A stretch of 64,000 nucleotides of DNA from Streptomyces sp. NBC_01353 (GTDB taxonomy: Bacteria; Actinomycetota; Actinomycetes; Streptomycetales; Streptomycetaceae), in NCBI RefSeq assembly GCF_036237275.1, contig NZ_CP108352.1:930001-994000 (forward strand), given 5' to 3'. The notes under the pieces were generated by a model, which did not search any database, was not told where the DNA came from, and saw nothing but the letters and a program-made list of their open reading frames with translations. The translations under genes were made by a program, and so were the position numbers. Below, one piece after another: positions 1 through 27,439 of this stretch (its first letter is position 1; each line of letters begins with the position of its first letter).

Positions 1-707
1 AGCAGTGCCCGTACGGCGTCCGTGACCCAGGTCACCGGGTTGATCTCGGCCCAGACACGGATCCAGTCCGGCATACGGTCGGTGGCCACCAGCGTCGAAC
101 TGCCGAAGGCCAGCGGGAACATGAGCACCGTGCCCAGGGTCTGGACCCCCATGGGTGTCCGGGCGCGCAGCCCGACCAGGACCCAGACCCAGCAGAGCGA
201 GAAGGAGAAAACGAGCGCGACCGCACCCGCGGACAGCACACCGATCGCCCCGCCGCCCGGCCGGAACCCGATGAGGAGGCCGACCACCATCATCACGGCG
301 AGCGACAGGGCGTAGCGCACCAGGTCGCCCAGCACGGTGCCCAGCAGCGGGGCGGAGCGTGAGATGGGCAGGGTGCGGAAGCGGTCGAAGATCCCCTTCT
401 GCAGGTCCGTGGAGAGGGTCAGCCCGGTGCCCAACGTGGTGAAGACGACCGACTGCACGGCGATGCCCGGCAGGGCGAAGTCGCGGTAGGTCCGCCAGTC
501 CCCGTCCACGGCCTGGCCCAGCACGAACACGAAGAGGACCACGAAGATCACCGGTTGCAGAGTGAACCCCGCGATCTCCTCCGGGCTGCTGCGCAGCCGG
601 AGAACGCTGCGCCACGCCACCGCCCTCGACTGCCGCACCGCCGCGGACAGCCCGCCCTGCCGTGCCCGCCCCGCCGTCTCGGCCCGGCTCCGTTCAACCG
701 TTCGCAC
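1..707 (-). CDS. ABC-2 type transporter permease, DrrB-like (3' end outside window)
   Basis: Membrane subunit of a two-component drug/lipid exporter, probably pumping the lipolanthine product across the cytoplasmic membrane. I translated this frame by hand. It opens with GTG at 707 behind AAGGAGG and overlaps the end of the ATPase gene by 14 nt, so the pair is translationally coupled. The protein begins VRTVERSRAETAGRAR and then has the typical ABC-2 layout: a hydrophobic segment (QPVIFVVLFVFVLGQ), an external loop with GDWRTYRDFALPGIAVQ, the LQKGIFDRFRTLPISRSAP cytoplasmic motif characteristic of DrrB-type permeases, and further hydrophobic segments. About 235 codons are visible and the C-terminus lies off the left edge. 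It is the last visible gene of the leftward operon. The family assignment is firm; the substrate is inferred from context. Confidence 0.85.
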   Translation of the reverse strand, partial: MRTVERSRAETAGRARQGGLSAAVRQSRAVAWRSVLRLRSSPEEIAGFTLQPVIFVVLFVFVLGQAVDGDWRTYRDFALPGIAVQSVVFTTLGTGLTLSTDLQKGIFDRFRTLPISRSAPLLGTVLGDLVRYALSLAVMMVVGLLIGFRPGGGAIGVLSAGAVALVFSFSLCWVWVLVGLRARTPMGVQTLGTVLMFPLAFGSSTLVATDRMPDWIRVWAEINPVTWVTDAVRAL

Positions 708-1656
708 GATCGGCCTCCTTCGGGGGTTGCTCGGCGCCTCCGGTGAGCGCGAGGAAGACCTCGTCGAGACTCGGGTGTCCCAGGGAGATCTGGTCACGGG
801 CCAGCCCGGATTCCAGAAGCCGCTGGGCCACCTCCGGGAACGACTGCGGATCGTCCAGGGGCAGACGTACCGTCCCTTGGCCGGACTCCGCAGGGGTGCC
901 CAGCAGGCGGGTGGTCGCGTCCGCGGCCTCCCGTACGGTCATCCGCTGCGGGGGCCGGAACTCGACCCGGTGCCCGCCGACTCGGCGCTTGAGCTCCATG
1001 GGCCGGCCCGTGGCGATCAGACGACCCTCGGCGAGCACCGCGACCGTGTCCGCGAGCCGGTCCGCCTCCTCCAGGTACTGCGTGGTGAGGAGCACCGTCG
1101 TGCCGTCCGCGACCAACTCCTCGACCAGGCTCCACAGTTCGCCCCGGCTGTGCGGATCGAGACCGGTCGTCGGCTCGTCCAGGAACAGCACCCGCGGCCG
1201 GTGCAGAAGGCTGGCGGCGAGGTCCAGCCGACGGCGCATCCCTCCGCTGTACGTCTTGACCGGCTTGCTCGCGGCCCGCGTCAGCCCCAGGCGTTCGAGC
1301 ATCTCGGCCGCCCTGGCGCGTGCCGCCGGCCAGGACAGTCCGGTCAGGCGCCCGAAGAGCGCGAGATTGCCGGTGCCCGTCAGTAGATCGTCCACGGCCG
1401 CGTACTGTCCGGTGACTCCGATCAGCTCACGCACCCGAGCCGCCTCGGCGACGACGTCCAGACCGGCGATCCGGGCGCTGCCGACGTCGGGTGGGAGGAG
1501 CGTGGCCAGGACCCGTACGACCGTCGTCTTCCCCGCGCCGTTGGGGCCGAGCAGACACAGCACGCTGCCCCGTTCCGCCCGGAGATCCACACCGTCCAGG
1601 ATCGTCTCGGTCCCGAACCGCTTGCCCAGGGACCGCACTTCGATGTCCGGCGTCAC
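694..1656 (-). CDS. ABC transporter ATP-binding protein, DrrA-like
   Basis: Nucleotide-binding subunit that powers export by the adjoining permease. The GTG start at 1656 follows GGGGAG and gives VTPDIEVRSLGKRFG. This is preferred to longer upstream frames, which run through the end of the enoyl reductase gene. Walker A is GPNGAGKTT, the signature is YSGGMRRRLDLA, Walker B is LFLDEPTTGLDP and the switch His is replaced by Gln (TTQYLEEA), which is usual in the DrrA family. The C-terminal part has the DrrA-type segment HPSLDEVFLALTG. It sits 61 nt after the FabI-like gene on the same strand and overlaps the permease. Export or self-resistance for the lipopeptide is the likely job; the substrate is not shown by the sequence. 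Confidence 0.9.
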   Translation of the reverse strand: MTPDIEVRSLGKRFGTETILDGVDLRAERGSVLCLLGPNGAGKTTVVRVLATLLPPDVGSARIAGLDVVAEAARVRELIGVTGQYAAVDDLLTGTGNLALFGRLTGLSWPAARARAAEMLERLGLTRAASKPVKTYSGGMRRRLDLAASLLHRPRVLFLDEPTTGLDPHSRGELWSLVEELVADGTTVLLTTQYLEEADRLADTVAVLAEGRLIATGRPMELKRRVGGHRVEFRPPQRMTVREAADATTRLLGTPAESGQGTVRLPLDDPQSFPEVAQRLLESGLARDQISLGHPSLDEVFLALTGGAEQPPKEADRANG

Positions 1657-1717
1657 GGCGCGACGCTCCCCACACTCGTTCTCCGCCTGCTCACGGGAGT
1701 ACCGTCCGCTCCTCGGC

Positions 1718-2476
1718 TCAAGCGCCCACGGCGTGGAAACCGCCGTCGACATGCACGATCTCCCCGGTCGTCGCGGGCAGCCAGTCCGACAGCAGCGCGA
1801 CACAGGCCCGCGCGGTCGGGTCCATGTCGTCGCCCTGCCACCCCAGCGGGGCGGTCCTGTCCCACTCCTGGGTGTCGAAGCCGGGCACGCTGCGCGCCGC
1901 CGTCGTCCGCAGCGGACCCGCGGCCACCAGATTGACCCGGACGCCCCGGGGGCCGAGATCCCGTGCCAAGTACCGGGCGCACGACTCGAGTCCGGCCTTG
2001 GCCACCCCCATCCAGTCGTATCCGGGCCAGGCCCGCGACGCGTCGTAGTCGAGACCGACGACCGCGCCACCCGGTCCCATCATCGGAAGCACCGCGGCCG
2101 TCAGTGCCTTCAGGGAGTACGTGGACACCTGAAGGGTCGTGGCGACGTCCTCCCACGGCGTGTGCAGGAAGTTGCCGCCCAGCGCCGACTGCGGTGCGAA
2201 CGCGATGGAGTGCAGGATCCCGTCCAAGCCGTCGACATGCTCACCCAACCGGTCGGCGAGCGTGCCGAGTTGTTCCTCGGACGTCACGTCGAGCTCCAGC
2301 ACGGGAGGAGGCTGCGGCAGCCGCTGCGCCACCCGTCTGACAAGGCTCATCCGCCCGTGACCGGTGAGGACGATCTGCGCGCCCTCTGCCTGGGCGACGC
2401 GTGCCACGTGGAAGGCGATGGAAGCGTCGGTCAGGACCCCCGTGACCAGAATGCGCTTCCCCTTGAGAAGTCCCAC
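1718..2476 (-). CDS. FabI/InhA-like enoyl-[acyl-carrier-protein] reductase
   Basis: Short-chain dehydrogenase of the enoyl-ACP reductase branch (252 aa), expected to reduce the trans-2 double bond of an acyl thioester with NAD(P)H. It starts MGLLKGKRILVTGVLTDASIAF, the divergent dinucleotide motif of FabI/InhA, then LHSIAFAP. The catalytic pair fits Tyr-x6-Lys (GYDWMGVAKAGLES), and it ends in the GEIVHVDGGFHAVGA motif. It is a cluster paralogue placed among PKS and RiPP genes. The cluster PKS has no ER domain, so the simplest reading is a trans-acting ER for the PKS or for the free KS/ACP chain elongation. A product-resistant duplicate of housekeeping FabI is an alternative. Confidence 0.85.
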   Translation of the reverse strand: MGLLKGKRILVTGVLTDASIAFHVARVAQAEGAQIVLTGHGRMSLVRRVAQRLPQPPPVLELDVTSEEQLGTLADRLGEHVDGLDGILHSIAFAPQSALGGNFLHTPWEDVATTLQVSTYSLKALTAAVLPMMGPGGAVVGLDYDASRAWPGYDWMGVAKAGLESCARYLARDLGPRGVRVNLVAAGPLRTTAARSVPGFDTQEWDRTAPLGWQGDDMDPTARACVALLSDWLPATTGEIVHVDGGFHAVGA

Positions 2477-2556
2477 CAGTTCTCCCTTGCGATGTGTTCG
2501 GTACCGTCCGGCCGTGACAGGGGCGACGCGGCCCGTGCCGGATGAGTTCAGTGCCG

Positions 2557-3261
2557 TCAGTGGCCCATGAGCGAGCCGCCGTCGACGGGTACGACGGCTC
2601 CGGTCACATAGGCCGCGTCCTCGCCGGCCAGGAAGCGCACGACGCGGGCGACCTCCTCGGGCGCGGCGCTGCGACCGAGCGGAATCTGCCGGATGTACTC
2701 GTCGCGCAGCGCGGAGGGCAGGGCGGCGGTCATGTCCGTCTCGATGAATCCGGGCGCCACGACGTTGACGGTGATGCCACGCGGGCCGAGCTCGCGGGCC
2801 ATGCTGCGGCCGAAGCCGACCAGACCGGCTTTGGACGCCGCGTAGTTGGCCTGTCCGGCCGCGCCCTGCAGGCCGACCACGGAGGAGATGAGCACGATGC
2901 GCCCCCGGCGCATCCGCAGCATCCCCCGCACCGCGCGCTTCACCGTGCGGTAGGCACCCGTCAGATTGGTGTCCAGGACGGCCGTGAAGTCCTCCTCCGG
3001 CATGGCCGCCAGGAGGCGGTCGCGGACGATGCCCGCATTGACCACGAGAACCTCGACGGGCCCCTGCTCCTCCTCGACCCGCTTGAACGCCAGATCCACC
3101 TGGGCCGTGTCGGTGACGTCACAGGCCACCCCGAACAGCCCCTCAGGGGGCTCGGCGCCACGGTGTGTCACCGCCACCCGCTCACCCGACGCCTGCAGTT
3201 CGCGCGCCACGGCGAGGCCGATTCCGCGGCTTCCGCCGACCACCAGACAAGACCGTTTCAT
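2557..3261 (-). CDS. FabG-like 3-oxoacyl-[ACP] reductase
   Basis: Classical SDR of 234 aa that should reduce 3-oxoacyl-ACP to 3-hydroxyacyl-ACP with NADPH. It shows the Rossmann motif GGSRGIG, the NAG strand (LVVNAGIVRD), catalytic Ser (LISSVVG), Tyr-x3-Lys (YAASKAG) and the C-terminal VDGGSLMGH. The start is ATG at 3261. It lies 35 nt downstream of the SET-domain gene and 80 nt upstream of the enoyl reductase, all leftward. Together with the free KS (11956-13218), free ACP (19048-19299) and FabI-like enzyme, it supplies a nearly complete dissociated elongation set inside the cluster; only a free dehydratase is missing. The PKS also carries its own KR, so this enzyme probably serves the dissociated chain. 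Confidence 0.88.
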   Translation of the reverse strand: MKRSCLVVGGSRGIGLAVARELQASGERVAVTHRGAEPPEGLFGVACDVTDTAQVDLAFKRVEEEQGPVEVLVVNAGIVRDRLLAAMPEEDFTAVLDTNLTGAYRTVKRAVRGMLRMRRGRIVLISSVVGLQGAAGQANYAASKAGLVGFGRSMARELGPRGITVNVVAPGFIETDMTAALPSALRDEYIRQIPLGRSAAPEEVARVVRFLAGEDAAYVTGAVVPVDGGSLMGH

Positions 3262-3296
3262 GCGTCGTCCCCTCCGATCTTCTCTTCCGCACCGGC

Positions 3297-3776
3297 TCAG
3301 CGAGTGCCGGCGGAGGAGGGGTTCGGCAGCGTCGCGGAGGCGTGCAGCCGGCCGGTGATGTGCTCGTTGAGCGCGTAACGGCTCAGCACCTCCGGCGGGA
3401 GGCTCCGTGCCCCGGAGACGACGCCGATGCAGTCGGGGGCCGCGCACAGGCAGTCGAACGGCCCGACCATCTCCCACTCGGTGGAGGGATAGAAGAAGGC
3501 GAGTTCCTCGCCCGCGGCGATCGGACGCAGCGCACGCACCTCCATACGTGCCGTGTCGACATGGACGTTGGGCGCGCAGGAGTGGTTGAGGTAGCGGACC
3601 TGCGGGCCGTCTATGTGCCGGTCGTCCCCGGTGTCGATCGTGTAGATGGAGGGCCATTCGGCCACGACGCACTCCGTCAGGTCGGCGAACGCCTCCCCTT
3701 CCGCGAGGGGTCGCGCGGCGACGACACCGGCGCCGTACGCGCGGTCCTGGACCAGCTTGAACGCTTGCGTCTGCAT
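3297..3776 (-). CDS. SET-domain protein, candidate N-methyltransferase of the cluster
   Basis: Small 159-aa protein built almost only of a SET domain. Visible motifs are the AYGAGVVAARPLAEGE N-terminal strand, the NHSC motif (YLNHSCAPNVHVD) and GEELAFFYPSTEWEMVGPFDCLC, which resembles the SET core plus a cysteine-containing post-SET tail (CLCAAPDC). SET enzymes normally transfer methyl groups from SAM to lysine side-chain amines. No other methyltransferase lies in the lipolanthine cluster. Goadvionin, a known lipolanthine, carries a trimethylammonium group on its acyl chain, so methylation of an amino group on the acyl starter or peptide is a reasonable hypothesis. It is in the same leftward gene string, 58 nt after the PKS. 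The family call is good; the role is inference. Confidence 0.75.
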   Translation of the reverse strand: MQTQAFKLVQDRAYGAGVVAARPLAEGEAFADLTECVVAEWPSIYTIDTGDDRHIDGPQVRYLNHSCAPNVHVDTARMEVRALRPIAAGEELAFFYPSTEWEMVGPFDCLCAAPDCIGVVSGARSLPPEVLSRYALNEHITGRLHASATLPNPSSAGTR

Positions 3777-3834
3777 GGAGCGGAATCCTTTTCCTTTGCC
3801 GGGCGTCCGGGGCCCGGATGAGATGGTTCGGTGG

Positions 3835-6800
3835 TCAGTTCCGTGCGGCGCCGTCGGGACGTTGCTCCAGCAGTTCGAGCAGGATCCCGGCCAGTGCGGC
3901 GGCCGTACGGTTCTCGTAGACGATCTGCGGCCGGAGCCCCGGCACCAGTGCCTTCAGCCGACGCAGGACGGTCATCGTCGTCAGGGAGTCCATGCCGAGG
4001 GCGAAGAAGTCGGCGTCGGGGGCCAGGGCGTCCGCGCCGGGCAGGCTCAGCGCTCGGGCGACCAGGTCCTGCACATGCCGCTGGACCAGCGTCAGGCGCT
4101 GTCCCTCCGGGGCGGTGGCCAGCAGCCCGCGCAGATCGCCGTCGGCCGGCGTCCGGCCGTCGGGTGGGGCGGGGGCGGCGGGTGCCGGAGCCGTGAGGTG
4201 GTCGAGCAGGGGGAGCGGGGTACGGGTGGCGTACGCGGCCGCTACCGCCGGCCAGTCGGCATCGGCCACGACCACCTGCGCCTCGGAGCCGGCCAGCATC
4301 TGATCCACGGCCGCGACGGCGCGCTCGCCCGGCATGAGGCGCAGCCCGGAGGCCAGGATCGCCGCGCGGGCCGCCGGGTCGTCCAGCCCGTCGTCCCACG
4401 GACCCCAGTTGATGACCTGCGCGGGCAGACCGGCGAGCCGACGGGCGTGCACCAGGGTGTCGAGGAAGCAGCCGGCGGCCGCGTAGTGGGCCAGTCCCTG
4501 GGAGCCGAGGAGCGCGGTGGTGGACGAGTAGCAGAGGAACTGCTCCACGTCGTGGCCTGCGGAGCAGCGGTGCAGCAGCGCAGTCCCGGTGATCTTCGGG
4601 TGGAGCACGGCTGCCAGCCGCTCCTCGGACATGTCGGCCAGCGTGGAGACGTCCTCCACGAACGCGGCCTGGTAGATGCCGCGCAGGGGCGGGAGGTCCG
4701 TGCCGAACCGCGTGAACAGCTCCCGTACGTCGGTCTCGTCCGTCACGTCCGCCGCGATCGGGGTGATCGTCACGCCCTGGGCCCGCAGCCGGTCCACGAC
4801 GCCGGTCGCCGCACCGGTCAGGCCGCGCCGGGACATCAGCACCAGATGGCGCGCGCCCAGCCGGACCAGTCGGTCGAGCAGGGCGGGGCCGAGCCGGCCC
4901 GTGGCGCCCACCACCAGATGGCTGCCCTGGTCGTCCAGGACCGCGGGGGCGGAGACCGGCCGCACGGCGTCCGTCAGGCGAGGGACGTACCGGGCTCCGG
5001 CACGGTGGGCGCTCTGCTCCCCGTACCGCTCCGAGAGGAGGTCGGCGACGAGCACCCGGGCGGACGACTCCGTGTCGGCCGTGTGGTCGAGGTCCACCAG
5101 ACCCCCCCACCGTTCGGGGTGCTCCAGGGCCGCACTGCGGCCGAGCCCCCACAGGACGGCCTGGGCGGGATGGAGCGTGGGCTCGTCCCTGACCGCCTGG
5201 GCCCCGCTGGTGACGAACCACAGCCTGGCCTCGGTGTCCGTGGCGGCCGCCACGGCCTGGATCAGCCGGGTGGCCCGGCCGGCGATCCGGAGCGCCTGCG
5301 CGGCGGTGTCCGGGTCCAGCCCGTCGGCCGGGCCGGCACCGGGGCCATGGACCAGGTGGCGTACGTCGTCGAGTCCGCCGAGCCGTGCGGCGAGCGCGGT
5401 CGGCGCGACACCGTCCAGGTCATCTGCGCTGACGGTCCGGCAGGCCATGCCGTGCGCCTCCAGCCGGCGGCCGACCGCCGCGGCCAGCGCGTCGTCGACT
5501 CCGACGAGCAGCACCTTCCCGTGGCGGACCGCGCCGTCGGCGGGTTCCCCCGTCGACGGCCGCTCAGTCCATTCCAGGGACCTCAGCCAGGATGCCGGGG
5601 CGTGGTCGGGGCGACCGCCGATCCGGCGCAGGCGTACGCCACGTGCCCGGCCGCGCAGCACTCCGTCCTGGTACCAGTCCAGCGCGGCGACCAGGCGGTC
5701 CCCTTCCTCCGCCACCCTGGCCGCCACCCGGAGCGGCCCGGCAACGGGGTCTGTCGGGGCGCGGAAGCTCAGGCTGTCGATACCCACGACCGTGTACATC
5801 CCGTCGTGCGGTCCCTCCTGCCGCCACAGGCAGGCGGGCAGGGCCTGGAACGCGGCGTCCAGGACGAGGTGGAGGTCGTCGGGCGGCGTGACTCCCCCGG
5901 CTCCCCCGTCGTCCGTGCGGGGCAGTGCCGGCTCGGCGAGAACGCCGTCGCCGAGCTCCCGTAGCCGCCGGATCACCCGCAGCGCCGGCCCGTACGCCAG
6001 ACCGGCCTGCTCCAGGCCCCCGTAGTACGCGTCCGCCTCGACCGGTTCCCCGGCCGACCCGTCCACCGGCACCGGCACCGGGCGGGGCGCCGGGATCTCG
6101 GCCGGATCCTCGTGCAGCCGGGCGGAGGCGCAATGGGTCCACTCCCCGTCCGCGGCCCGGCTGTGGAAGTCGAGCTCCGCGGTGGCGGAGCCGGACGCGG
6201 ACGGCCGCAGCAGGATCTGAAGCGCGACGGGGTCGCCATCGAGAACGACGGCGGCGTGCACGGTGAGGTCCCTGACCACGTGGTGGCCCGCGCCTGCCTC
6301 TGCGGCGGCGGCCAGGGCCAGCCGCAGATAGGCGGAGACGGGCAGCAACGCCTGTCCGCCCACCCGGTGTTGGTGCAGCGCCGCGAGGTGTGGGGCGGAC
6401 AGGTCGGTCTGCCACAGACGGGTTCCGGGCAGGGCGGCCAGCTCCGCGCCATGGCCCAGCACTCCCCGTCCCGGGGTGGCGACCGGGCCGACCGGGAGGG
6501 AGGCAGCGGCCGTTGCGGCGGGCCGGGCGGCGGTGGACCAGTACCGGCGGCGGAGCCACGACTGCCGTGGCAGATCGGCCAGTTCACCCGCGGGGGTCAG
6601 CTCCTCCCACGGCAGCGGAAGACCGTGACAGTGCAGCCGTCCCACCGCCGCGAGGAACGTCGTGTACGGCGCGAGATCCCGTACGAGTGTGGGGCCGACA
6701 AGCGCGTCCCGCACACCGCTGTCGCGCAGCGTGGCCCGCACGTCACGAACCAGGACCGGGTGCGGCGAGATCTCGACGAAGGCGCTGTGCCCCGCCATGG

Positions 6801-11246: not shown

Positions 11247-11317
11247 GCGGGGTGGCCAGCCTTTCGTCGTTCGTGGTCGAGTGCCGCTGTGCGAGGGGTG
11301 AACGCGCCGGTACGGGC

Positions 11318-13218: not shown

Positions 13219-14764
13219 AGTGGTTCCGCCTCTCTTTCGTTCCGGTCTGCGGGGCCGTACCGGCCCTGCCCGGGTTCTTGCGTGCAAGGGCCCGGTGGAC
13301 GTGCTCGGTCAGCGCGGAGACATCCGTCTTGCCGCGGTGGTTGACCGGGAACCGGTTCATCACGAGCACGTGGTTGGGCTGTTCGTACGGAGGGAGGAGC
13401 GCGCAGATGCGCTGCCGCCACAACCGCGGTTCCTCTTCGGCCGGGTCCTCGACCACGAAGGTCAGCTCATGGCCGCGGCGGGCGTCCTCCAGCGAGACGA
13501 TCTTCACCGGGCGGCCGCAGGCCTCGGCCTTGCGCTCCAGTACCTCGGGGTAGAGCGTGTGGCCCAGGCGGTGGACGGCGAACTTGCGGCCGAGGACGTG
13601 GAGGTTGCCGGACTCGTCCCGGTAGCCCAGGTCACCGGTGCGGTAGTGCTCGGTCCTCGTCGGTGGGGCGACCGTCCCGATCTCGGTGAGGTACCCCTCC
13701 ATGAGGTCCGGGGTCCGTACCCACACCTCGCCGACCTCGGTGGGCGGCAGGCTCCGTCCGTCCTCGCCCACGATCCGTACGTCGACGCCGTCGAGGACCC
13801 GGCCGCAGCCGTGCGGATTGCCCGGGGTGGCGTAGGCGATGTTGCCGGCCTCGGTGCTGCCGTACCCGTCGAGCAGCGGGCTCCCGGTGGCCTCGGCGAA
13901 GTGGCGCCCCAGTTCGCGGTCCATCGGCGCACCACCCGTGCACCACAGCCGTACCCTGTCCAGGCCCGACAGCAGACGTGGTCTGCGCTGTCCGAGACTG
14001 ATCAGGCTCCGGTAGGTGGCCGGGGTCGCGTCCACGACGGTCGCACCGTGCAGGGCCCCGGCCGTCAGCGCCCGGTCGAGGCGGGTGTGCGGCACCACGA
14101 CGAGTGACGCGCCCGCCAGCCAGGCGAGGAAGATCATGGAGAGTCCGTACTGGTGCGAGAAGGGCAGCACCGGCAGCAGGACGTCGTCGGCGCGGTAACC
14201 CAGATAGCGGCGGGTGCGCTCCAGGTTCCGCAGGAACGCGGAGCCCGACTTCACGACGGCCTTGGGTTCTCCCGTGGTCCCCGAGGACCACAACACCAGC
14301 GCGTCGGCCCGCGCCCGCCAACGCTCCGCGGAGAATCGCTCGCCACTCTCGCGGTTCCCGGGTGTCGTGCCTTGCATCGGGGCCAGGTCGGCGACCCGCA
14401 GCTGCCGGACACCGTCCGGCAGTGGCCCGTGCTGCTCCACGAGCGCGAACCGCACGCCGGTGAACCGGGCGACACGGTGGGTCTCCTCGGCGGTCTGCTC
14501 CGCGTCCACGAGCACGATCGACGTGTCGAGATGGACCAGGGCGAGCAACGCCGCGACGAACTCGGGCGAGTTGCCGGCCTTGAGGAGGACGCGGTCTCCG
14601 CTTCCGACGCCCTGGTCACGCAGTATCCCCGCCGTCCTCAGGGCATCCGCCTCGGCGGCGGTCGGCGCAGCCGAGGGACCGGTGCCGATGACCCTCAGGG
14701 ACGGTCGGCCCCGCTGCGGGTCGGCGACCCGACCGATGCCGGGCGTGGAACGTACCTGCGCCAT
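13205..14764 (-). CDS. Class I adenylate-forming acyl ligase
   Basis: ANL-superfamily enzyme of 519 aa that forms an acyl adenylate and then a thioester. Motifs: LWSSGTTGEPKAVVKS (A3), LDGYGSTEAG (A5), EHYRTGDLGYRDESGNLHVLGRKF (A7-A8) and the catalytic Lys in NHRGKTDVS (A10). It lacks the FAAL sequence marks seen in the neighbouring ligase, so the cluster has two different activating enzymes. I place the start at ATG 14764 (MAQVRSTPG), which has GGAAGGA upstream; an in-frame ATG at 14806 lies close to the hairpin and has poor spacing. It is the first gene after the precursor genes and the hairpin at 14817-14853. It may load an unusual carboxylic acid onto the free ACP or CoA; the substrate is unknown. 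Confidence 0.85.
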   Translation of the reverse strand: MAQVRSTPGIGRVADPQRGRPSLRVIGTGPSAAPTAAEADALRTAGILRDQGVGSGDRVLLKAGNSPEFVAALLALVHLDTSIVLVDAEQTAEETHRVARFTGVRFALVEQHGPLPDGVRQLRVADLAPMQGTTPGNRESGERFSAERWRARADALVLWSSGTTGEPKAVVKSGSAFLRNLERTRRYLGYRADDVLLPVLPFSHQYGLSMIFLAWLAGASLVVVPHTRLDRALTAGALHGATVVDATPATYRSLISLGQRRPRLLSGLDRVRLWCTGGAPMDRELGRHFAEATGSPLLDGYGSTEAGNIAYATPGNPHGCGRVLDGVDVRIVGEDGRSLPPTEVGEVWVRTPDLMEGYLTEIGTVAPPTRTEHYRTGDLGYRDESGNLHVLGRKFAVHRLGHTLYPEVLERKAEACGRPVKIVSLEDARRGHELTFVVEDPAEEEPRLWRQRICALLPPYEQPNHVLVMNRFPVNHRGKTDVSALTEHVHRALARKNPGRAGTAPQTGTKERRNHCVPK

Positions 14765-14816
14765 CTGCTTGTTGCTTCCTTCCGGACCGGGGTACCGGTC
14801 GGGCATCCTGGGGACG

Positions 14817-14853
14817 GGTGGCGTGAGCCGTCATTGCCTCGGCTCACGCCACC
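14817..14853 (-). terminator. Perfect 14-bp hairpin between precursor genes and downstream biosynthetic genes
   Basis: Arms GGTGGCGTGAGCCG (14817-14830) and CGGCTCACGCCACC (14840-14853) pair without mismatch around a 9-nt loop. It sits 20 nt after the stop of the second precursor gene and before the ligase. No U-tract follows, which is common in GC-rich actinomycetes. Placement after small precursor genes suggests a partial terminator or 3' stabiliser that keeps precursor mRNA far more abundant than the long downstream biosynthetic message. Confidence 0.75.
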
Positions 14854-14873
14854 TCTTACTGCCGCGCCATGGC

Positions 14874-14966
14874 TCAGCAGTTCCAGCTGGTGGTGCTGGC
14901 CGCCATCAGAGCGGTCTCCTCCTCGGAGGTCTCAAGCTCCTGGAGGTCGAGGATCGCCTCGGTCAT
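14874..14966 (-). CDS. Lipolanthine precursor peptide, copy 2
   Basis: A 30-residue peptide gene. Leader MTEAILDLQELETSEEE carries the ILDLQ motif that class III lanthipeptide synthetases recognise. The C-terminus is S-T-T-S-W-N-C, an exact S-x2-S-x2-C pattern with a terminal Cys, as needed for avionin formation by two Ser dehydrations and decarboxylation of the Cys. The codons are identical to copy 1, 142 bp away. The SD is weaker than copy 1 (AGGAAGGGGGTGACACCC before ATG). It is followed by the hairpin at 14817-14853. The leader cleavage site is not certain; an eight-residue core A-S-T-T-S-W-N-C would fit known avionin lipopeptides. No protease gene was seen in the cluster. Confidence 0.9.
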   Translation of the reverse strand: MTEAILDLQELETSEEETALMAASTTSWNC

Positions 14967-15015
14967 GGGTGTCACCCCCTTCCTGCTGTGCGGGTTACGC
15001 GGGACGGTCGGCCAC

Positions 15016-15108
15016 TCAGCAGTTCCAGCTGGTGGTGCTGGCCGCCATCAGAGCGGTCTCCTCCTCGGAGGTCTCAAGCTCCTGGAGGTCGAGGATCGCC
15101 TCGGTCAT
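15016..15108 (-). CDS. Lipolanthine precursor peptide, copy 1
   Basis: Same 30 residues as copy 2: an acidic leader with ILDLQ, then ALMAA and the C-terminal S-T-T-S-W-N-C. It lies between the synthetase gene (stop at 15218) and copy 2. It has a strong ribosome site, GAGGAGGTGACACCC before the ATG, so it should be translated very efficiently. Ser and Cys spacing (S-x2-S-x2-C) distinguishes it from labyrinthopeptin-type precursors, in which the second Ser-Cys gap is longer. The product is expected to be dehydrated and cyclised by the LanKC and oxidatively decarboxylated by the LanD at 19357-20010. Confidence 0.92.
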   Translation of the reverse strand: MTEAILDLQELETSEEETALMAASTTSWNC

Positions 15109-15217
15109 GGGTGTCACCTCCTCTCTCTTCGCTCGTGGGAGGACCGGACCTGTCGGGCCGGCCACATCTGGGGGCGGCGGGCGCGGTGAGGGAACCTCAC
15201 GCGCTCCGGGCCGCGCG

Positions 15218-17839
15218 TCACTGGGGACGGGGGGTGAAGAACGGCAGGAACGTGCTGCCGTCCACCGCGGCGGTGATGCCGAGCAGCACGCCCGCGTTTC
15301 CCGTCGCGAGGTCCATCGAGAGCCGGTACGACTGGTCGCCGGGGAAGGCCAGATGTCCCTCGTAGGACAACTTGTGCCAGCTGAGTGCCCCGAGATGGCG
15401 GCGTACCGCCTCGCGAGCCTCGGTTCCGCCGTCGCGGTGGGCCAACCGGGCCACGACACTCATCAGTCCGCTGCGCCCGTTGAACAGGTGGGGCTCGGCG
15501 ACGTACTCCGATTGGCAGGCCCGGCGCAGCGCCGGGAGCACGGCCGCCAGGTCGGCGTCCGCACGTGCGGTCAGCAGCTCGTCGGCGACGAGGGCGATGC
15601 CCCCGCTGCCCACCTCGAGGTACGACAGAGTGCGGATCGAGTCGGCGACCTGGACGCTGCCGTTGCTCCGGGTCGTGCAGGCTTCCAGGTCGCGCTGGAG
15701 CGCCTCGACGGCCAGGTCCCAGAAGGTCTCGTCACCGCTGCTCTCGTACAGCCGCAGCAGGAACAGGGCGACTCCCGACCAGCCGCGCATCAGCCCGGCC
15801 TGGGCACGTCCGGGTGTCACGTCGGATCCGGGTTCGCGCAGCAACCGGCCCAGACGAAGACCCAGTTCATGGGCTTCCGTCCGGCAGCCTTCGTCGTCGT
15901 GACGGCCGGCGAAGTGCAGCAGGTTCAGTCCGGCGCCGGCGAGACCGCCGAACAGGCTGGGGTCGGTCAGTCCACGGGTGGCCTCACGGGCCCGCTCCAG
16001 CGTCTCGCGCGCCTCCTCGACGTGCCCGAGCTCGTCGAGCACGTACGCGATGCCGTGCAGTCCGCTGTAGAAGCCCGGACGCAGGTACGTGGTGGTGCGC
16101 ACCGCGTCGAGCAGCCACTTCTCATGTTCGGGGGCGGTGGTGACCGCGCCGGTGGTCCGCAGCGCCCACAGCACACCGGCCGCCCCGTGCGCGAAGCCAA
16201 GGGCGTCGTGCTGGAACTGCTGGATGTCGCCGGGGAAGAGACGGTCCGTACGGTCCGGGGTGGCGCTCCGTGCGATGGCCGACGCGAGCGAGACCCGTAC
16301 GGAGTCCCAGTCGACGCGGTCCGCGTCGAGATCCACATCGAGCGGGCGGCCGAGCTGCGCACGGCGGCGTTCCACCAGTTCCCGGGGGAAGGGCGACACC
16401 TGGGCGTCGCCGTCCGCGCCCGGTGGCGGCGTCGTGTCGGCGCGAATCCGGTCGCAGAACCCTTCGGGGAGGTCCGCGAAGCGGGCCTCGACGGCGGTGA
16501 GCGTCTCCGCCAGCTTGGTGGGCGAGAGCGGGAACAGTCGGTTGACCGGCAGGTGGAACCAGAGGCGCAGCATCGCCAGCGCATAGCGGTCCACCGAGGT
16601 CCCGGTGAATCCGGCGGGCGCCACGAAGCCCTGGGCGCCCAGCGCCGGCCGCTCGTCCTTGCCCCCGTCGGTGCTGAAGGCGGCTTCGAAGTCGACGAGC
16701 GAGAGCTGCCCGTCCGAGCGGATCAGGATGTTGCCCGGGTGCAGGTCGCCGAAGACGACACCCCGCTCGTGGACGTCGGCGATGAGCTTCTCCAGCCGGG
16801 CGGAGATGGCGGTGACCTTGTCCTCGTACTCCCGCTCGTCGGCTCGATCCGTTCCGAAGTGCACCAGGGGGTGGTACGTCGCGAGCCAGAGCCACAGCAC
16901 GTCGCCCTCCCGGTACTCCATGGCCAGGAAGTGATGTCCGCCCGCCACCAGGTACTCGTAGAACTCGGGAATGCCCTCCACGCCGGCCAGCCGCTCCAGC
17001 GCCCATCGCTCGCGGCCGAGCCGCTCCACGGCGTCGCGGCCGCTCATGTCGAGTCCGGCACCGGGCCGGGCCTCCTTGAGCACCACCGTCCTGTTGTCGG
17101 AGAGTCGTTCGGCGAGGTAGACACCGCCACCGTTGGAGAAGTGCAGCGCGCGCTTCACCTTGTACGGGAAGTTCTCGGTGCCTGCCTTGCGGCGGGCGAG
17201 ATGGGGAGCGAGGAATTCGGGGATCTCCACCCACGGCGGCGCGTAGTGACCGGGGCGGCGCTCGTCGGGTACGAGCGTGCCGTCGGGCGTCTCGACGGCG
17301 AGGACGCGATCGCCCTTCCCCGTGCGGCAGTACCGCCGGCGGAACCCGCCGTAGCGCACATGGAGAGGTCCTTCGCCCCACCGCAGATCGCTGAGGATGT
17401 AGGGACCGGGCGTCCCCTTCAGCTCCGCGCCGAGTTCGGTGAGCACGGTCTCGAGCTGCCGGTCGTCCCGTGGGTAGACGGTGACGAGCTTGCCGCTCGA
17501 CTGGCGCGGCATGTACTTGGAGTTGCAGAGCCTGAACAGCTGCTTGTCGCGCAGGAACTTGAAGGGGATGCCTCGCTCCGTGCAGTAGGCCCACACGGTG
17601 TCGACCACATGCTCGGCGTTCTCGGCGTCCGAGGAGACATGGATCTTCCACCCCTGCGCGGGATGGTCCGCCACGTCCGGGTTCATCGTCACCCAGACGT
17701 CGTGCGAGGAGCGCCGCCAGTCCGCGGGGATCTCCCGCGTCACCGCGGCGAAGCGGTCGTCCTCGTGGCCGCTCCATTCACCCAGCGACTCGTAGAAGAC
17801 CAGATCCGCCCAGCCGTAGAGCTGGCGCTGCTCGATCAC
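15218..17839 (-). CDS. Class III lanthipeptide synthetase (LanKC), avionin-forming type
   Basis: Trifunctional enzyme of 873 aa. The N-terminal lyase-like region begins VIEQRQLYGWADLVFYES. The central Ser/Thr kinase has FSNGGGVYLAERL, the ATP Lys in VVLKEARP, the catalytic loop VVFGDLHPGNILI and VDFEAAF (DFE). The C-terminal LanC-like cyclase keeps GLHGIAYVL and GWSGVALFL, but the zinc-ligand CHG is NGRSGL, so it is the zinc-free class III type. It phosphorylates precursor Ser residues, eliminates them and helps cyclise. I choose GTG at 17839, preceded by GGAGAGGAG at good spacing. An in-frame ATG at 17899 has no ribosome site. The gene is first in the leftward string and directly precedes the precursor genes. 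Confidence 0.95.
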   Translation of the reverse strand: MIEQRQLYGWADLVFYESLGEWSGHEDDRFAAVTREIPADWRRSSHDVWVTMNPDVADHPAQGWKIHVSSDAENAEHVVDTVWAYCTERGIPFKFLRDKQLFRLCNSKYMPRQSSGKLVTVYPRDDRQLETVLTELGAELKGTPGPYILSDLRWGEGPLHVRYGGFRRRYCRTGKGDRVLAVETPDGTLVPDERRPGHYAPPWVEIPEFLAPHLARRKAGTENFPYKVKRALHFSNGGGVYLAERLSDNRTVVLKEARPGAGLDMSGRDAVERLGRERWALERLAGVEGIPEFYEYLVAGGHHFLAMEYREGDVLWLWLATYHPLVHFGTDRADEREYEDKVTAISARLEKLIADVHERGVVFGDLHPGNILIRSDGQLSLVDFEAAFSTDGGKDERPALGAQGFVAPAGFTGTSVDRYALAMLRLWFHLPVNRLFPLSPTKLAETLTAVEARFADLPEGFCDRIRADTTPPPGADGDAQVSPFPRELVERRRAQLGRPLDVDLDADRVDWDSVRVSLASAIARSATPDRTDRLFPGDIQQFQHDALGFAHGAAGVLWALRTTGAVTTAPEHEKWLLDAVRTTTYLRPGFYSGLHGIAYVLDELGHVEEARETLERAREATRGLTDPSLFGGLAGAGLNLLHFAGRHDDEGCRTEAHELGLRLGRLLREPGSDVTPGRAQAGLMRGWSGVALFLLRLYESSGDETFWDLAVEALQRDLEACTTRSNGSVQVADSIRTLSYLEVGSGGIALVADELLTARADADLAAVLPALRRACQSEYVAEPHLFNGRSGLMSVVARLAHRDGGTEAREAVRRHLGALSWHKLSYEGHLAFPGDQSYRLSMDLATGNAGVLLGITAAVDGSTFLPFFTPRPQ

Positions 17840-18314
17840 TTCCGACTCCTCTCCCCCGTGTCCATGCCTGCGCAGCCGAAGCTCGTTTGCGCCACGCATG
17901 CATGATTTTCAGCCGCATTCGCGTCAGTCGTTCACGGCCACTCGTCGAGTGGCAATCCGCGCCGGAATTCCGTGCCGGAACACGGAGTCGTATCCCCCAT
18001 GGACCGGCCGGCCGCTGAATGGCGTGCGGCCGAACCGAGTTCGACCCTCGCGAGGCAGCGTGGTGCGGCTGTTCGGAGTCGCTTCCGGCTCCGTTCCGGC
18101 CGAGACACAGCTTGCTATTCGGAGGCCCGCTCGCGCGTCACTCCGGCCAGTGAATCCGACTAGTCCTTTGGGTTACGAAACCCCTCCTCCCAGAGGAGGA
18201 TCCCCACGCTCGGCGATCATGTTGGGATGGCCGCGGCGACGCACCGGACCTCCCACACGCGACTGACCATCGCGGACGGTGCGACGTCTCACGTAGAGGT
18301 AGGTTTAACGGGGC
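17840..18314. promoter_or_regulatory. Divergent control region between LanKC and the LuxR regulator
   Basis: This 475-bp gap separates leftward lanKC and rightward luxR and must hold both promoters. Two adjacent short dyads are visible: GGGTT-ACGA-AACCC (18170-18183) and CCTCCTC-CCA-GAGGAGG (18183-18199). They are candidate sites for the cluster regulator. I could not fix -35/-10 boxes with confidence. The stretch is less GC-rich than the flanking genes. Confidence 0.5.
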
Positions 18315-18977
18315 ATGACAATAGAATTACTCGTCGCACATGGCGAAGGGCTGGCACGTGCGGGGATCATCCAGATCCTCGAAGGCACGGGGGATCTCAC
18401 GGTAGTGAGCCAGACCGGAAGCAGTATCCAGGCGGTGCAGTTGAGCAGGACGCTGCGCCCCGACATCGTGGTGCTCGACGGAGGAAGCCACGAACTCGGG
18501 CATCCCGCGGTGATCCGGGCGATCACCGAACTCCCCTCCAGCGATGTTCTTCTGCTCACGCCGGCCAGATCGGACGGAGCCCTCCTGCGCGCGCTTTCGG
18601 CGGGTGCGGTCGGACTCCTCCCCATGGACGCCGGCGCGGACGAACTGCTTCATGCGGTCCAACTCATCGCTCAGGGCCAGGGGTTCATCGATCCCACGGT
18701 GATACGGACCCTTGTCCACTCCGCCGCACACCAGACACCCGACGAGACCGTGACTTCGGACGAACGATTCACGGGGCTCCTCACACCACGGGAGCAGCAG
18801 GTGCTCGCGTGCGTGGGCGAGGGGCTTTCGAACATCGACATCGCCAAACGACTGATGGTGTCGGAGAACACGGTCAAGACGCATGTGAGCCGCATGCTGG
18901 CCAAACTCGGGCTGCGCAGTCGGGTGGAGGCCGCACTCTCCATCCGAGATTCCTGGCATTCACGCGATGCCTGCTGA
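18315..18977 (+). CDS. LuxR-family regulator with degenerate receiver domain; contains a TTA codon
   Basis: NarL-like protein of 220 aa. The C-terminal HTH is textbook (LTPREQQVLACVGEGLSNIDIAKRLMVSENTVKTHVSRMLAKLGLRSRVEAA). The N-terminal receiver is altered: the acidic pair at the start is missing (LLVAHGEGLARAG), the phospho-acceptor-like Asp remains (IVVLDGG), and the conserved Lys near the end is Met (GLLPMDAGADE). Phosphorylation control is therefore doubtful and a ligand may act instead. Codon 5 is TTA (18327-18329), so translation should depend on the bldA leucyl-tRNA and be late in development. Divergent from lanKC, it is the likely cluster activator. No partner kinase gene is present in the window. 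Confidence 0.88.
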   Translation: MTIELLVAHGEGLARAGIIQILEGTGDLTVVSQTGSSIQAVQLSRTLRPDIVVLDGGSHELGHPAVIRAITELPSSDVLLLTPARSDGALLRALSAGAVGLLPMDAGADELLHAVQLIAQGQGFIDPTVIRTLVHSAAHQTPDETVTSDERFTGLLTPREQQVLACVGEGLSNIDIAKRLMVSENTVKTHVSRMLAKLGLRSRVEAALSIRDSWHSRDAC

Positions 18978-19047
18978 ACCCACCGGCACCACTGACATGC
19001 ACGTGCTGCCGGCCAACCCCAATCGATTCGAACAGGAGTCCCATCAC

Positions 19048-19299
19048 ATGACCACTTCCACCGACCAGGACCTGCTCGCCGCCGTCGCTGAGCTGCTGTA
19101 CGAGATCGCCGAGGTCCCTGTCGAGGACGTAAAGCCCGAAAGCTCCTTCAAGGACGACCTCGATGTCGACTCCCTCCTGATGGTGGAGTTCGGCATCGCC
19201 CTCGAGGACCGCTTCGGCGTGGCCATACCGGACGAGGACTTCTCCAAGGTCCGTACGGTCTCGGCGCTGCTCGAGCTCCTTCGGCCCGCATCGTCGTGA
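19048..19299 (+). CDS. Stand-alone acyl carrier protein of the lipolanthine cluster
   Basis: Discrete ACP of 83 aa that should carry the growing acyl chain or starter on a phosphopantetheine arm. The modified Ser lies in DDLDVDSLLMVEFG, and the rest is the acidic AcpP-like four-helix pattern (ALEDRFGVAIPDEDFSKVRTVSALLELL). The ATG at 19048 (MTTSTDQ) has AGGAG nine bases upstream; longer frames starting at 18967 have no site. It follows luxR on the same strand and ends at a strong hairpin terminator. It likely partners with the free KS, FabG-like and FabI-like enzymes and the second ligase. Confidence 0.92.
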   Translation: MTTSTDQDLLAAVAELLYEIAEVPVEDVKPESSFKDDLDVDSLLMVEFGIALEDRFGVAIPDEDFSKVRTVSALLELLRPASS

Positions 19300-19307
19300 C
19301 GACCGCC

Positions 19308-19351
19308 CCGGCCCGTCGTCCGTGCCGGCTTCGGCACGGACGACGGGCCGG
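19308..19351. terminator. Strong bidirectional terminator, 20-bp perfect stem
   Basis: Arms 19308-19327 and 19332-19351 (left arm CCGGCCCGTCGTCCGTGCCG) pair perfectly over a 4-nt loop. It lies between the rightward ACP gene and the leftward decarboxylase gene, which end only 8 and 5 nt away, so it can stop both transcripts. Confidence 0.85.
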
Positions 19352-19356
19352 GATCC

Positions 19357-20010
19357 TCACCCGGCAGGGGCCTGAGCGTTCCGCTCATGGAGGACCCGCG
19401 CCGTGAACCTCAGCGTCGCGTTGATGTCCGGCATCCCCGCGGCCACGCCCACCTGCGCCTTGTGCACCGACGTGCCGGGCTGCATGGGCGCCACGTGGTA
19501 GCCGTCCTCGGTCAGCGTCCGCAGGTTCCGCTGCACCGCGGGCCGGACCAGCGCACCCGCGGGCAGGCTCGGGGCGAGGACGACCGGGGCGGAGGTGGCA
19601 AGGACGGTGCTGAGCGCCAGGCTGTCGGGCATGCCTAGGGCGCACTTGGCGACGAAGTTGGTCGTCGCGGGCGCCACGATCACCAGATCCGGCCACTCAG
19701 CAAGTTCCTGATGCGGTGTCACACCGCGCTCGGTGTCCCAGTGCGGCCCCTCCACGGGAGCCTGGGTGGCCGCCGCCAGGGCCTGCCGGGAGACCAGCTG
19801 ATCGCCCGCGTGGGTGAGACACGCGCGAATCGACCAGCCGTACCACATGCGCATCAGCACCGCCCAACTGGGCAGTGCGGTCACCCCGAACGCCCCCGCA
19901 CCCACCAGGAGCACGCGTCCGCGGGGAAGTTCGATGTGGGGACGCCCCTGGGGCACTCCCTTGTCCACCGGAGGCTCACCGGAACCATTCTGGCTGAGCT
20001 CATTCGACAT
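19357..20010 (-). CDS. LanD-type flavoprotein cysteine decarboxylase (HFCD family)
   Basis: A 217-aa flavin enzyme expected to oxidatively decarboxylate the C-terminal Cys of the precursor to an enethiol, the step that allows avionin closure in lipolanthines. The FMN-binding region is RVLLVGAGAFGVTALPSW. The active-site His is His100 in HQELAEWPDL, matching the HxEL motif of EpiD. PATTN (114-118) corresponds to PASAN, and the substrate clamp is LAPSLPAGALV in place of PxMNxxMW. The start at 20010 (MSNELS) is preceded by GAAGGAAGAGG. It is on the opposite strand from the desaturase and 1.5 kb from lanKC, with luxR and ACP in between. It could also be an ordinary Dfp-like protein, but context argues against that. 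Confidence 0.9.
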   Translation of the reverse strand: MSNELSQNGSGEPPVDKGVPQGRPHIELPRGRVLLVGAGAFGVTALPSWAVLMRMWYGWSIRACLTHAGDQLVSRQALAAATQAPVEGPHWDTERGVTPHQELAEWPDLVIVAPATTNFVAKCALGMPDSLALSTVLATSAPVVLAPSLPAGALVRPAVQRNLRTLTEDGYHVAPMQPGTSVHKAQVGVAAGMPDINATLRFTARVLHERNAQAPAG

Positions 20011-20168
20011 GGCTGCCTCTTCCTTCGCGCAACAAATCATTGACCGAGCACCGCATTCGCAGTTCTGACCAGTGGATGGAATCAGAGAGGCCGAGCCCCG
20101 GAAATCATCCTGTCGAAGGATTCGACGTCACCTTTGGAACTAGCCCTCGAGGAAGGCGAAGAGAACCC

Positions 20169-21116
20169 ATGATGCCCAGCGACACGAAGATTCTGAAGGA
20201 ACTGGAAGAGGTGGTGGAGCGGGAGCTCAATCGCCATCTCTCCACGGCCAAGGAATGGTTTCCACACGAGTACGTCCCCTGGAGCCGCGGGCGTGACTTC
20301 GACGGCCCCCTCGAAGGCGAGCCGTGGGACGCACAGCAGTCGAAGGTGAGCGAGCTCGGCCGAATCGCGCTCACCGTGAATCTGCTCACCGAGGACAATC
20401 TGCCGACGTACCACCATGAATTCGCGACCCTCTTCGGCCGTGACGGCGCCTGGGGAACCTGGGTGCTGCGCTGGACGGCCGAGGAGGCGCGGCACTCCGT
20501 GGCCATTCGGGACTATCTCCTCACGACCCGCGCGGTCGATCCGGTGAAGCTGGAACGGGCCCGCATGTCCCACATGTCGGACCATGCGCCCGGCGACAAT
20601 TCAAGCCTGCTCGTCACCATGGCCTATGTCGCCTTCCAAGAGCTGGCCACCCGCATATCGCACCGGAACACCGGGCGTATATCCGGAGATCCGGACTGCG
20701 AACGCCTGCTGGCGCGTGTGGCGATGGACGAGAACCTCCACATGATCTTCTATCGCAATCTGCTCACCGCGGCGCTGGAGACGGCGCCCGATCGGACCAT
20801 GCGCGCCATTGCCGATGTCGTGGGCGGCTTCGCCATGCCCGGCGCGGAGATCCCGGGCTTCGAACGGGCCGCGGTGCACATCGCGCTCGGCGACATTTAC
20901 AACCTTCGCATCCACCACGACGAGGTGCTGCAACCCATCCTGCGGCATCTCGACGCGCTGGACCTGTCCGGCCTCGGCGCCCACGGTCTGCAGGCACAGG
21001 AGGAATTGGGCCTCCATCTGGAGGAACTGACGTCCCAGGCCACCCGCTTCGAGGAGCGACGCGCGGCCCTGCTCTCCCGTATGGAGTCACGGGAGACGAA
21101 GCGCCGCAACGACTGA
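20169..21116 (+). CDS. Acyl-ACP desaturase, soluble diiron type
   Basis: Ferritin-like diiron enzyme of about 315 aa, of the stearoyl-ACP desaturase family, which introduces a double bond into an acyl chain held on ACP using O2 and ferredoxin electrons. The iron ligands form two Glu + ExxH pairs: TEDNLPTYHHE with WTAEEARHSVAI, and AFQELATRISHRN with MDENLHMIFYRN. The start is at the ATG ATG pair (20169/20172), behind GGCGAAGAG. It is divergent from lanD and is the right border of the cluster. The free ACP nearby is a natural carrier. The lipid tail of the product is thus probably unsaturated; the bond position is unknown. Confidence 0.9.
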   Translation: MMPSDTKILKELEEVVERELNRHLSTAKEWFPHEYVPWSRGRDFDGPLEGEPWDAQQSKVSELGRIALTVNLLTEDNLPTYHHEFATLFGRDGAWGTWVLRWTAEEARHSVAIRDYLLTTRAVDPVKLERARMSHMSDHAPGDNSSLLVTMAYVAFQELATRISHRNTGRISGDPDCERLLARVAMDENLHMIFYRNLLTAALETAPDRTMRAIADVVGGFAMPGAEIPGFERAAVHIALGDIYNLRIHHDEVLQPILRHLDALDLSGLGAHGLQAQEELGLHLEELTSQATRFEERRAALLSRMESRETKRRND

Positions 21117-21153
21117 CCCGGGGAGCGCCCCCTACCGCAGCGCCCGCCCCGAC

Positions 21154-21726: not shown

Positions 21727-21748
21727 CGGACACACTCTCCCTCTTTGA

Positions 21749-21762
21749 GATACAGTCGTATC
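21749..21762. promoter_or_regulatory. Candidate TetR operator
   Basis: GATAC-AGTC-GTATC is a perfect 5-bp-arm dyad in the 56-bp space between the TetR start (21726) and the DUF1707 start (21783). It is AT-richer than its surroundings and placed where it can block both divergent promoters. Confidence 0.6.
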
Positions 21763-21782
21763 CTAAACGAAGGGGGAGAACG

Positions 21783-25153: not shown

Positions 25154-25206
25154 ACGGTCGGCTCCACTCCCCCACCCACGGCACGACTGCACAGACAAGG
25201 CGACAG

Positions 25207-26235: not shown

Positions 26236-26246
26236 CGGGAAGAGCG

Positions 26247-26299
26247 AAACCCGAGGCCGCCCGCTCCGCGTCTGTCGCGGGGCGGGCGGCCTCGGGTTT
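26247..26299. terminator. Bidirectional terminator, 24-bp stem
   Basis: Arms 26247-26270 and 26276-26299 pair over a 5-nt loop with a single G-U type exception; the left arm begins AAAC and the right arm ends GTTT, giving short A/U tails. It is placed between the convergent O-methyltransferase and cyclase genes. Confidence 0.9.
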
Positions 26300-26324
26300 C
26301 TCCGTCGTGCGTTCGCTCAGGAGC

Positions 26325-26657: not shown

Positions 26658-26697
26658 CGAGCGTCCTTCCTGGGTGTGCGGGTATGCGAGTGTGCGG

Positions 26698-27439
<742 letters not shown>

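Follow-up and report, generated by a model that had tools for sequence, protein, structure and literature searches.

A probable lipolanthine-type gene cluster in Streptomyces with a variant lipid half, predicted to make an N-acylated avionin peptide

The stretch of DNA analysed here, called the window (64,000 nucleotides, G000:C1:930001-994000, from the two-contig, 8.57-Mb genome G000; G+C content 70.8%), opens within a gene cluster that is likely of the lipolanthine type, with an N-acylated avionin octapeptide as its predicted product. It combines a class III LanKC, an octapeptide of the form S-x2-S-x2-C, a clustered flavin-dependent cysteine decarboxylase, and a GNAT acyltransferase in the company of polyketide and fatty acid genes. 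The locus fits the lipolanthines in every defining feature that could be settled, and its lipid half is a variant. A preliminary description of the same DNA had proposed an N-acylated avionin octapeptide-like product, and the anatomy of the locus supports it, with LanKC, decarboxylase, S-x2-S-x2-C motif, and GNAT co-conserved with the lipid genes in five species.

From the gene content, motifs, conservation, and precursors we infer the following route. LanKC would dehydrate Ser2 and Ser5 of the core A-S-T-T-S-W-N-C, the decarboxylase would convert Cys8 to an enethiol, and a double addition from Cys8 to Ser5 to Ser2 would close the avionin ring. In parallel, a dedicated fatty acid synthase (FAS) would make the fatty chain, passing from an AMP ligase to an acyl carrier protein (ACP), FabF, FabG, a FAS1-type dehydratase, and an InhA-like reductase. 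A fatty acyl-AMP ligase (FAAL) would activate this chain and load it onto the N-terminal ACP of a polyketide synthase (PKS), which would extend it by at least one unit, as a 2-enoyl group, and a desaturase may introduce a further double bond. Once an unclustered peptidase had cut off the leader, the GNAT would move the chain from the C-terminal ACP of the PKS to the peptide N-terminus, and a DrrAB-type ABC exporter would secrete the lipopeptide. We regard the order FAS, FAAL, PKS, GNAT as the most likely one.

Precursors, LanKC, and the cysteine decarboxylase

LanKC scores 987 bits on the NCBIfam class III model (cut-off 575). Two precursor genes follow downstream of it, each preceded by a purine-rich, ribosome-binding-like site and identical to one another over 93 of 93 bases. 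Both encode the 30-residue peptide MTEAILDLQELETSEEETALMAASTTSWNC, which would divide into the leader MTEAILDLQELETSEEETALMA and the core ASTTSWNC. This C-terminal octapeptide has the S-x2-S-x2-C spacing, and homologous cores are found in four relatives. Its eight positions correspond to those of nocaviogua, which has the order Ala1-Avi2-Val3-Ser4-Avi5-Asp6/Asn6-Gly7-Avi8 (PMC10435860), and in both peptides a single residue stands ahead of the first Ser. The computed mass of the unacylated peptide after two dehydrations and oxidative decarboxylation is 786.312 Da.

His100 of the decarboxylase is part of a TPH stretch and falls opposite a His in each of the top two PDB matches, 7cfu and 6jls. 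LanKC, two precursors ending S-T-T-S-W-N-C, and a decarboxylase with catalytic His100 had all been named in the preliminary description, and each is borne out at its position. The decarboxylase is present with its catalytic His kept in all five species of the clade formed by the window strain, S. bicolor, S. sp. A3M-1-3, S. bambusae, and S. amritsarensis. A profile built from six proteins, those of these five and of S. neyagawaensis, re-found five of its own members by construction; it gave one further strong match, in G094, and 19.8 bits in one other genome, present under two ids (G194 and L073). The same six and G094 make up a single clade (98/96) in the LanKC tree. Across 14 whole genomes, Pfam found a decarboxylase match near LanKC at more than 50 bits in G000, G094, and G309 (in G309 on the contig that bears its LanKC); the G194 match in this search reached 26.5 bits, about 4.5 kb from LanKC. 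Among related loci the decarboxylase is rarer than other cluster genes; the flanks of the named loci extend at most about 10 kb per side, and genes farther away would escape.

A separate group of clusters combines LanKC, GNAT, and a ketosynthase (KS), as in L030 (9062-16194) and 15 similar rows from S. lydicus, S. albospinus, S. rhizoryzae, and others, some genomes appearing twice. These have mostly three near-identical S-x2-S-x2-C precursors, adjoined by an FAD/NAD-binding protein (PF13454), and no clear local flavin decarboxylase was found in them.

Conservation of the cluster and its GNAT

Sixteen gene types occur in all five species: the precursor, LanKC, decarboxylase, GNAT, AMP ligase, KS, FabG, dehydratase, FabI, ACP, FAAL, PKS, SET, desaturase, LuxR, and a 172-aa gene. 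The block from desaturase to FabI is unbroken in S. bicolor, A3M-1-3, and S. amritsarensis and lies on two contigs in S. bambusae, and because the gene order repeats in four other Streptomyces the gene set is not due to chance. In the LanKC tree, which has 37 rows (33 different), the five make up a single clade (100/100); G042 was omitted from it because its LanKC is cut by the fetched stretch. Compared with S. bicolor by a simple counting method, 14 genes have ratios of nonsynonymous to synonymous change (dN/dS) of 0.11-0.48, at dS of 0.55-1.29, and are under purifying selection, the lowest ratio (0.11) belonging to the decarboxylase. The clade offers a compact lipid enzyme set around one GNAT, with a core peptide that varies naturally across five species.

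These data leave almost no room for a degenerate or silent relic. The gene set is not fixed, since S. bicolor lacks the ABC pair at the position where other clade members have it, and PhyH has no match in the S. bicolor or A3M-1-3 genomes at E ≤ 1e-20; the cluster is, moreover, known from its genes and not from expression. However, the reading frames are open throughout, both precursors are intact, and the genes show purifying selection and conservation across species. Also very unlikely is that a lanthipeptide cluster and a separate lipid cluster stand side by side by chance and make two products. A lipid cassette can exist alone, since one in G034 has no LanKC, LanD, or GNAT match within the 20 kb fetched. 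In the clade, however, the two gene sets are interleaved, with the GNAT among the lipid genes and the ACP and desaturase past LanKC, and this arrangement is kept in five of five species. GNAT, LanKC, and FAS genes also stand together in other actinobacterial genera.

Searches with the GNAT place the nearest relatives of the locus in Streptomyces. Matches were found in 14 of 392 same-genus genomes (E ≤ 1e-30) and in 4 of 396 genomes of a phylum sample (E ≤ 1e-25), the window genome included in both counts, and 12 of the 13 other GNAT regions fetched have a LanKC match. An alignment of 14 GNATs, used as query, led to 71 loci in named genomes; 42 were analysed (L039-L080), and the 29 weak matches (L081-L109) were left out. 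LanKC is matched in 24 of the 42, and all of these except L054 (23/24) have a precursor of the expected form, taken as Ser/Thr-x2-Ser/Thr, one to six residues, Cys, and at most three residues more. The second AMP ligase has a homologue in 25 of the 42. We propose that the GNAT, whose predicted model has a mean predicted local distance difference test score (pLDDT) of 73, may both acylate the peptide N-terminus and release the chain, and release by the GNAT fits a PKS in which no thioesterase was found.

GNATs 42-44% identical to that of the window are also present in Firmicutes (L043-L045, L047, L050, and L052, from Fictibacillus, Brevibacillus, Bacillus, and Rossellomorea), where they adjoin genes for FabG, an AMP ligase, an aldehyde dehydrogenase, and a thiamine pyrophosphate (TPP) enzyme; the stretches fetched have no LanKC match. 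A set of GNAT, KS, AMP ligase, TPP, and aldehyde dehydrogenase genes occupies positions 2517-22204 of the joined 40 kb of L120/L121, from G443, a 3.4-Mb genome of the same phylum. Having GNAT, KS, and AMP ligase, this locus was considered as a microvionin-type cluster, yet it was rejected as there is no LanKC match in the 40 kb.

Lipid genes and the SET protein

Judged by its genes, the lipid half consists of two engines, a dedicated type II FAS (AMP ligase, FabF, FabG, InhA-like reductase, ACP, and FAS1-type dehydratase) and the FAAL with the PKS. The dehydratase was noticed because it is conserved in four relatives (45-56% identity); FabI has one other copy in the genome at E ≤ 1e-20, 61% identical. 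Everything that the preliminary description had listed here is present, namely the FAAL, GNAT, free KS, ACP, FabG, and FabI, desaturase, and ABC exporter. The SET gene and the second AMP ligase are additional members, and the dehydratase, PhyH oxygenase, and 172-aa gene lie outside the window and hence beyond its view. Its PKS without thioesterase holds in that Pfam finds no such domain, but the domain content had to be corrected to ACP-KS-acyltransferase (AT)-dehydratase (DH)-ketoreductase (KR)-ACP, which includes a DH and has an ACP at either end. Motifs are intact in the KS, AT, DH, and second ACP. The suggested unsaturation of the lipid is plausible in view of the PKS DH domain and the acyl-ACP desaturase; the suggested methyl branching is not shown and stays undecided, as the AT motifs, GHSMGE and VASH, fail to choose between malonyl and methylmalonyl units.

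The top PDB match of the SET protein is BurB (E 3.4e-18, about 30% identity), which is also first by fold, an observation that we treat as supporting because the predicted model has a mean pLDDT of 61. BurB is a SET enzyme that methylates methionine to S-methylmethionine en route to a sulfonium acid building block (PMC12542666, PMC7496086). Both BurB and the window's protein are small SET proteins that stand alone and belong to thiotemplate clusters; in the aligned stretch, the latter has NHSC and BurB LHSC. SET genes of this type were found in 5 of 384 genomes of the genus (E ≤ 1e-12), counting that of the window.

In one of these genomes, G034 (L122, 2184-12544), a FabG-FabI-ACP-AMP ligase-KS-SET cassette is followed by an AruI-like TPP enzyme that scores 542 bits on the 5-guanidino-2-oxopentanoate decarboxylase model (cut-off 500), with an aminotransferase nearby. 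This cassette appears to be a lipid pathway with enzymes in common with the window's cluster. TPP enzymes of S. bambusae and S. amritsarensis reach 474 and 483 bits with this model, a little below its cut-off, and it ranks first among the models for the S. bambusae enzyme. Both species have an amino-acid dehydrogenase beside PhyH, and among the five they alone pair an AruI-like TPP enzyme with such a dehydrogenase. Clusters of the S. rimosus type (G048, G036, G042, and L072; four different genomes) instead have a NodS-like methyltransferase of class I and an enzyme of the agmatinase family.

This pattern suggests that SET may methylate a cationic end of the acyl chain. A fuller version, which we put forward as a tentative and rather doubtful possibility, is that SET, whose fold resembles that of histone methyltransferases, has been recruited as a tail methyltransferase that acts on the far-end N (or S) of a starter derived from an amino acid, or of its acyl-ACP. 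It would leave the tail with a fixed charge or a methylated guanidinium and stand in for the class I methyltransferase of the S. rimosus-type clusters, and the tail itself would come from the dedicated type II FAS via the FAAL to the one-module PKS. Against a role at the chain end, the genomes of the window strain, S. bicolor, and A3M-1-3 have no guanidino-type TPP match above 358 bits, the SET matches in G146 and G300 have other surroundings without an acyl cassette, and the substrate of a SET protein is not readable from its sequence. An arginine route to the starter was also rejected for the window genome, where the guanidino-oxopentanoate decarboxylase model finds five TPP enzymes, the best at 357 bits against the cut-off of 500. 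The protein could be another SET fold that modifies small molecules, after BurB and its relatives, instead of proteins; if so, it would provide a direct test of the roles of small bacterial SET proteins and a starting point for engineering peptides with charged lipid tails.

The same hybrid might instead make a labionin or lanthionine ring bearing a plain fatty acid, drawn from primary metabolism via the FAAL, while SET and PhyH act elsewhere. FAALs generally take free fatty acids, the cluster has no recognised starter-supply gene and the genome no guanidino-type TPP enzyme above 358 bits, and the unreadable SET substrates would allow such a product. We consider it unlikely, however, as all five species have a catalytic-His decarboxylase, the gene with the lowest dN/dS of the 14, and as there would be no need for a second AMP ligase and a complete FAS.

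Several points weigh against an N-acylated avionin as the product. The product and the enzyme activities are predicted from genes, kinship to the characterised members is presumed, and no GdvG sequence was identified in the collections searched. The cluster genes scanned include no protease family for removal of the leader, the window's cluster has no recognised gene for starter-acid supply, and the division of the chain between FAS and FAAL-PKS is a guess. Within the limited flanks, a local decarboxylase was not found in most related LanKC-GNAT loci, so LanKC and GNAT alone are no proof of an avionin. The avionin reading depends on the decarboxylase, which the clade has and most related loci are seemingly without.

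Gene map, surroundings, and known systems

The cluster spans G000:C1 927870-951116, that is, from about 2.1 kb upstream of the window through its position 21116, and runs from the 172-aa gene on the left to the desaturase on the right (Table 1). By its sequence the 172-aa protein is probably a membrane protein. In S. bicolor its gene lies at the dehydratase end, as in the window (70% identity), while A3M-1-3, S. amritsarensis, and S. bambusae have it flanked by LuxR and LanKC (61-64%). This position in three relatives rules it out as a border shared with S. bicolor, and we therefore read it as a cluster gene that moved. Outside the clade, the 64 sources searched gave one match (L076, 39%). On the other side, a TetR gene (21154-21729) was left out, as it and the next four genes past it are unmatched in the flanking DNA of S. 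bicolor and A3M-1-3 that was fetched. TetR homologues are present in the GNAT loci L056, L061, and L063 (45-47%) and L071 (33%), and also in G443 (33%).

Table 1. Genes of the cluster. Positions are those of the window unless marked G000:C1 or with a locus id; percentages are identities.
Feature	Position	Strand	Evidence
172-aa conserved protein	G000:C1:927870-928388, left of window		No Pfam family
Homologues of the 172-aa gene	L136 2736-3239; L041 3179-3688; L042 3537-4031; L038 2958-3455		
PhyH-type oxygenase	G000:C1:928503-929432, left of window		
FAS1-type dehydratase	G000:C1:929440-929958, left of window		PF13452 80.6 bits
ABC-2 type permease of exporter	1-797, continues left to G000:C1:929892	-	Open reading frame and codon use; named from neighbour and sequence; 65% homologue in same place in S. 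bambusae
ABC exporter ATPase, DrrA-like	694-1656, start inferred	-	PF00005 96 bits; DrrA C-terminal domain 25 bits (just below cut-off 27)
Enoyl-ACP reductase, FabI/InhA type	1718-2476	-	NCBIfam FabI 415 bits (cut-off 299), InhA 338 bits (cut-off 430); 80-82% in four relatives
3-Oxoacyl-ACP reductase, FabG1-like	2557-3261	-	Top NCBIfam model mycolic FabG1, 343 bits (cut-off 420); 76-81% in relatives
SET-domain methyltransferase, 159 aa	3297-3776	-	PF00856 48 bits; NHSC motif intact; 63-67% in four relatives
Type I PKS, ACP-KS-AT-DH-KR-ACP	3835-9462	-	Pfam; active-site motifs; 55-59% full-length in four relatives
FAAL	9459-11246	-	NCBIfam PRK05850 fatty-acid--AMP ligase 525 bits (under cut-off 775)
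GNAT acyltransferase	11318-11959	-	PF13302 36 bits
KS, FabF type	11956-13218, start inferred	-	TIGR03150 fabF 517 bits (above cut-off 494)
AMP-dependent acyl ligase (second AMP ligase), proposed starter loading	13205-14806, start uncertain	-	PF00501 200 bits
Precursor peptide copy 2, core ASTTSWNC	14874-14966	-	Sequence; homologous precursors in four relatives
Precursor peptide copy 1, identical to copy 2	15016-15108	-	Sequence
Class III lanthionine synthetase LanKC	15218-17839, GTG start	-	NCBIfam NF038151 987 bits; RamC_N, kinase, and LANC_like domains
LuxR-type regulator, NarL-like	18315-18977	+	GerE 70 bits; receiver domain 27.5 bits (under cut-off 30.2); NCBIfam; 44-63% in relatives
Free ACP	19048-19299	+	PF00550; NCBIfam ACP and AcpM models, each below cut-off
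LanD-type flavin-dependent cysteine decarboxylase (HFCD family)	19357-20010	-	PF02441 57.7 bits; PDB matches 7cfu, 6jls, MrsD, EpiD
Acyl-ACP desaturase	20169-21116, start inferred	+	PF03405 209 bits; 62-71% in relatives

The cluster is adjoined at 25147-33531 by a type II polyketide set (two KS, a cyclase, a cupin, an SchA/CurD-like protein, an FAD hydroxylase, and an O-methyltransferase), which presumably is a spore-pigment locus. About 11-33 kb to the left of the window (L004/L003) are genes that we take, from their sequence and with no family search, to encode a [NiFe]-hydrogenase along with the proteins that mature it, and also a terpene synthase accompanied by a P450 and a conservon-type regulator set.

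Few known lanthipeptides have a fatty tail. Genes for polyketide or fatty acid biosynthesis are noted in a number of clusters from each of the four lanthipeptide classes (PMC7268733). None of the loci found was recognised as the microvionin, nocavionin, or goadvionin cluster, and the comparison of genes is one with related loci. Microvionin, nocavionin, and nocaviogua share with the window's cluster a LanKC and a decarboxylase (MicKC-MicD) and an N-acyl chain of fatty-acid or polyketide origin (PMC10435860, PMC10373908). The known lipolanthines have a cationic group at the chain end, and in these three it is a bis-methylated guanidino group, whereas none of the genes in the window's cluster was recognised as guanidine-making. 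The lipid side here, with FAAL, PKS, SET, and desaturase, is probably unlike theirs.

The goadvionins are similar in being N-terminally lipidated class III lanthipeptides with a GNAT, the acyltransferase coupling a polyketide to the peptide. Their chain is reportedly a C32 polyhydroxy trimethylammonio chain, which, compared by description, would be beyond the single PKS module here acting alone. The lipoavitides are N-terminally lipidated ribosomally synthesised and post-translationally modified peptides (RiPPs) with non-modular fatty acid enzymes. They are said to carry a short acyl chain started by beta-ketoacyl-ACP synthase III, a family not found among the Pfam matches of the cluster genes scanned, where, unlike in the lipoavitides, the free KS is of the FabF type. 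Among the literature matches listed, seen in part and not covering the primary lipolanthine, goadvionin, and lipoavitide papers, no FAAL-PKS-SET lipolanthine cluster is described. The lipid part is likely different from that of the known lipolanthines, as judged against related loci and not against characterised clusters, and we know of no other RiPP with a lipid line like the one proposed here, which would run from a type II FAS through a FAAL to a one-module PKS.

Mycobacteria offer further parallels to the lipid genes. FabG1 is the best NCBIfam model of the window's FabG, and InhA and AcpM are the second-best models of its FabI and ACP, as in the mycolic type II FAS; the scores lie under the mycobacterial cut-offs, and the likeness is therefore one of toolkit and not of membership. 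In the mycobacterial FadD26-PpsA system, a FAAL feeds a PKS that begins with an ACP, and the window's FAAL and its PKS with an N-terminal ACP are alike in this respect.

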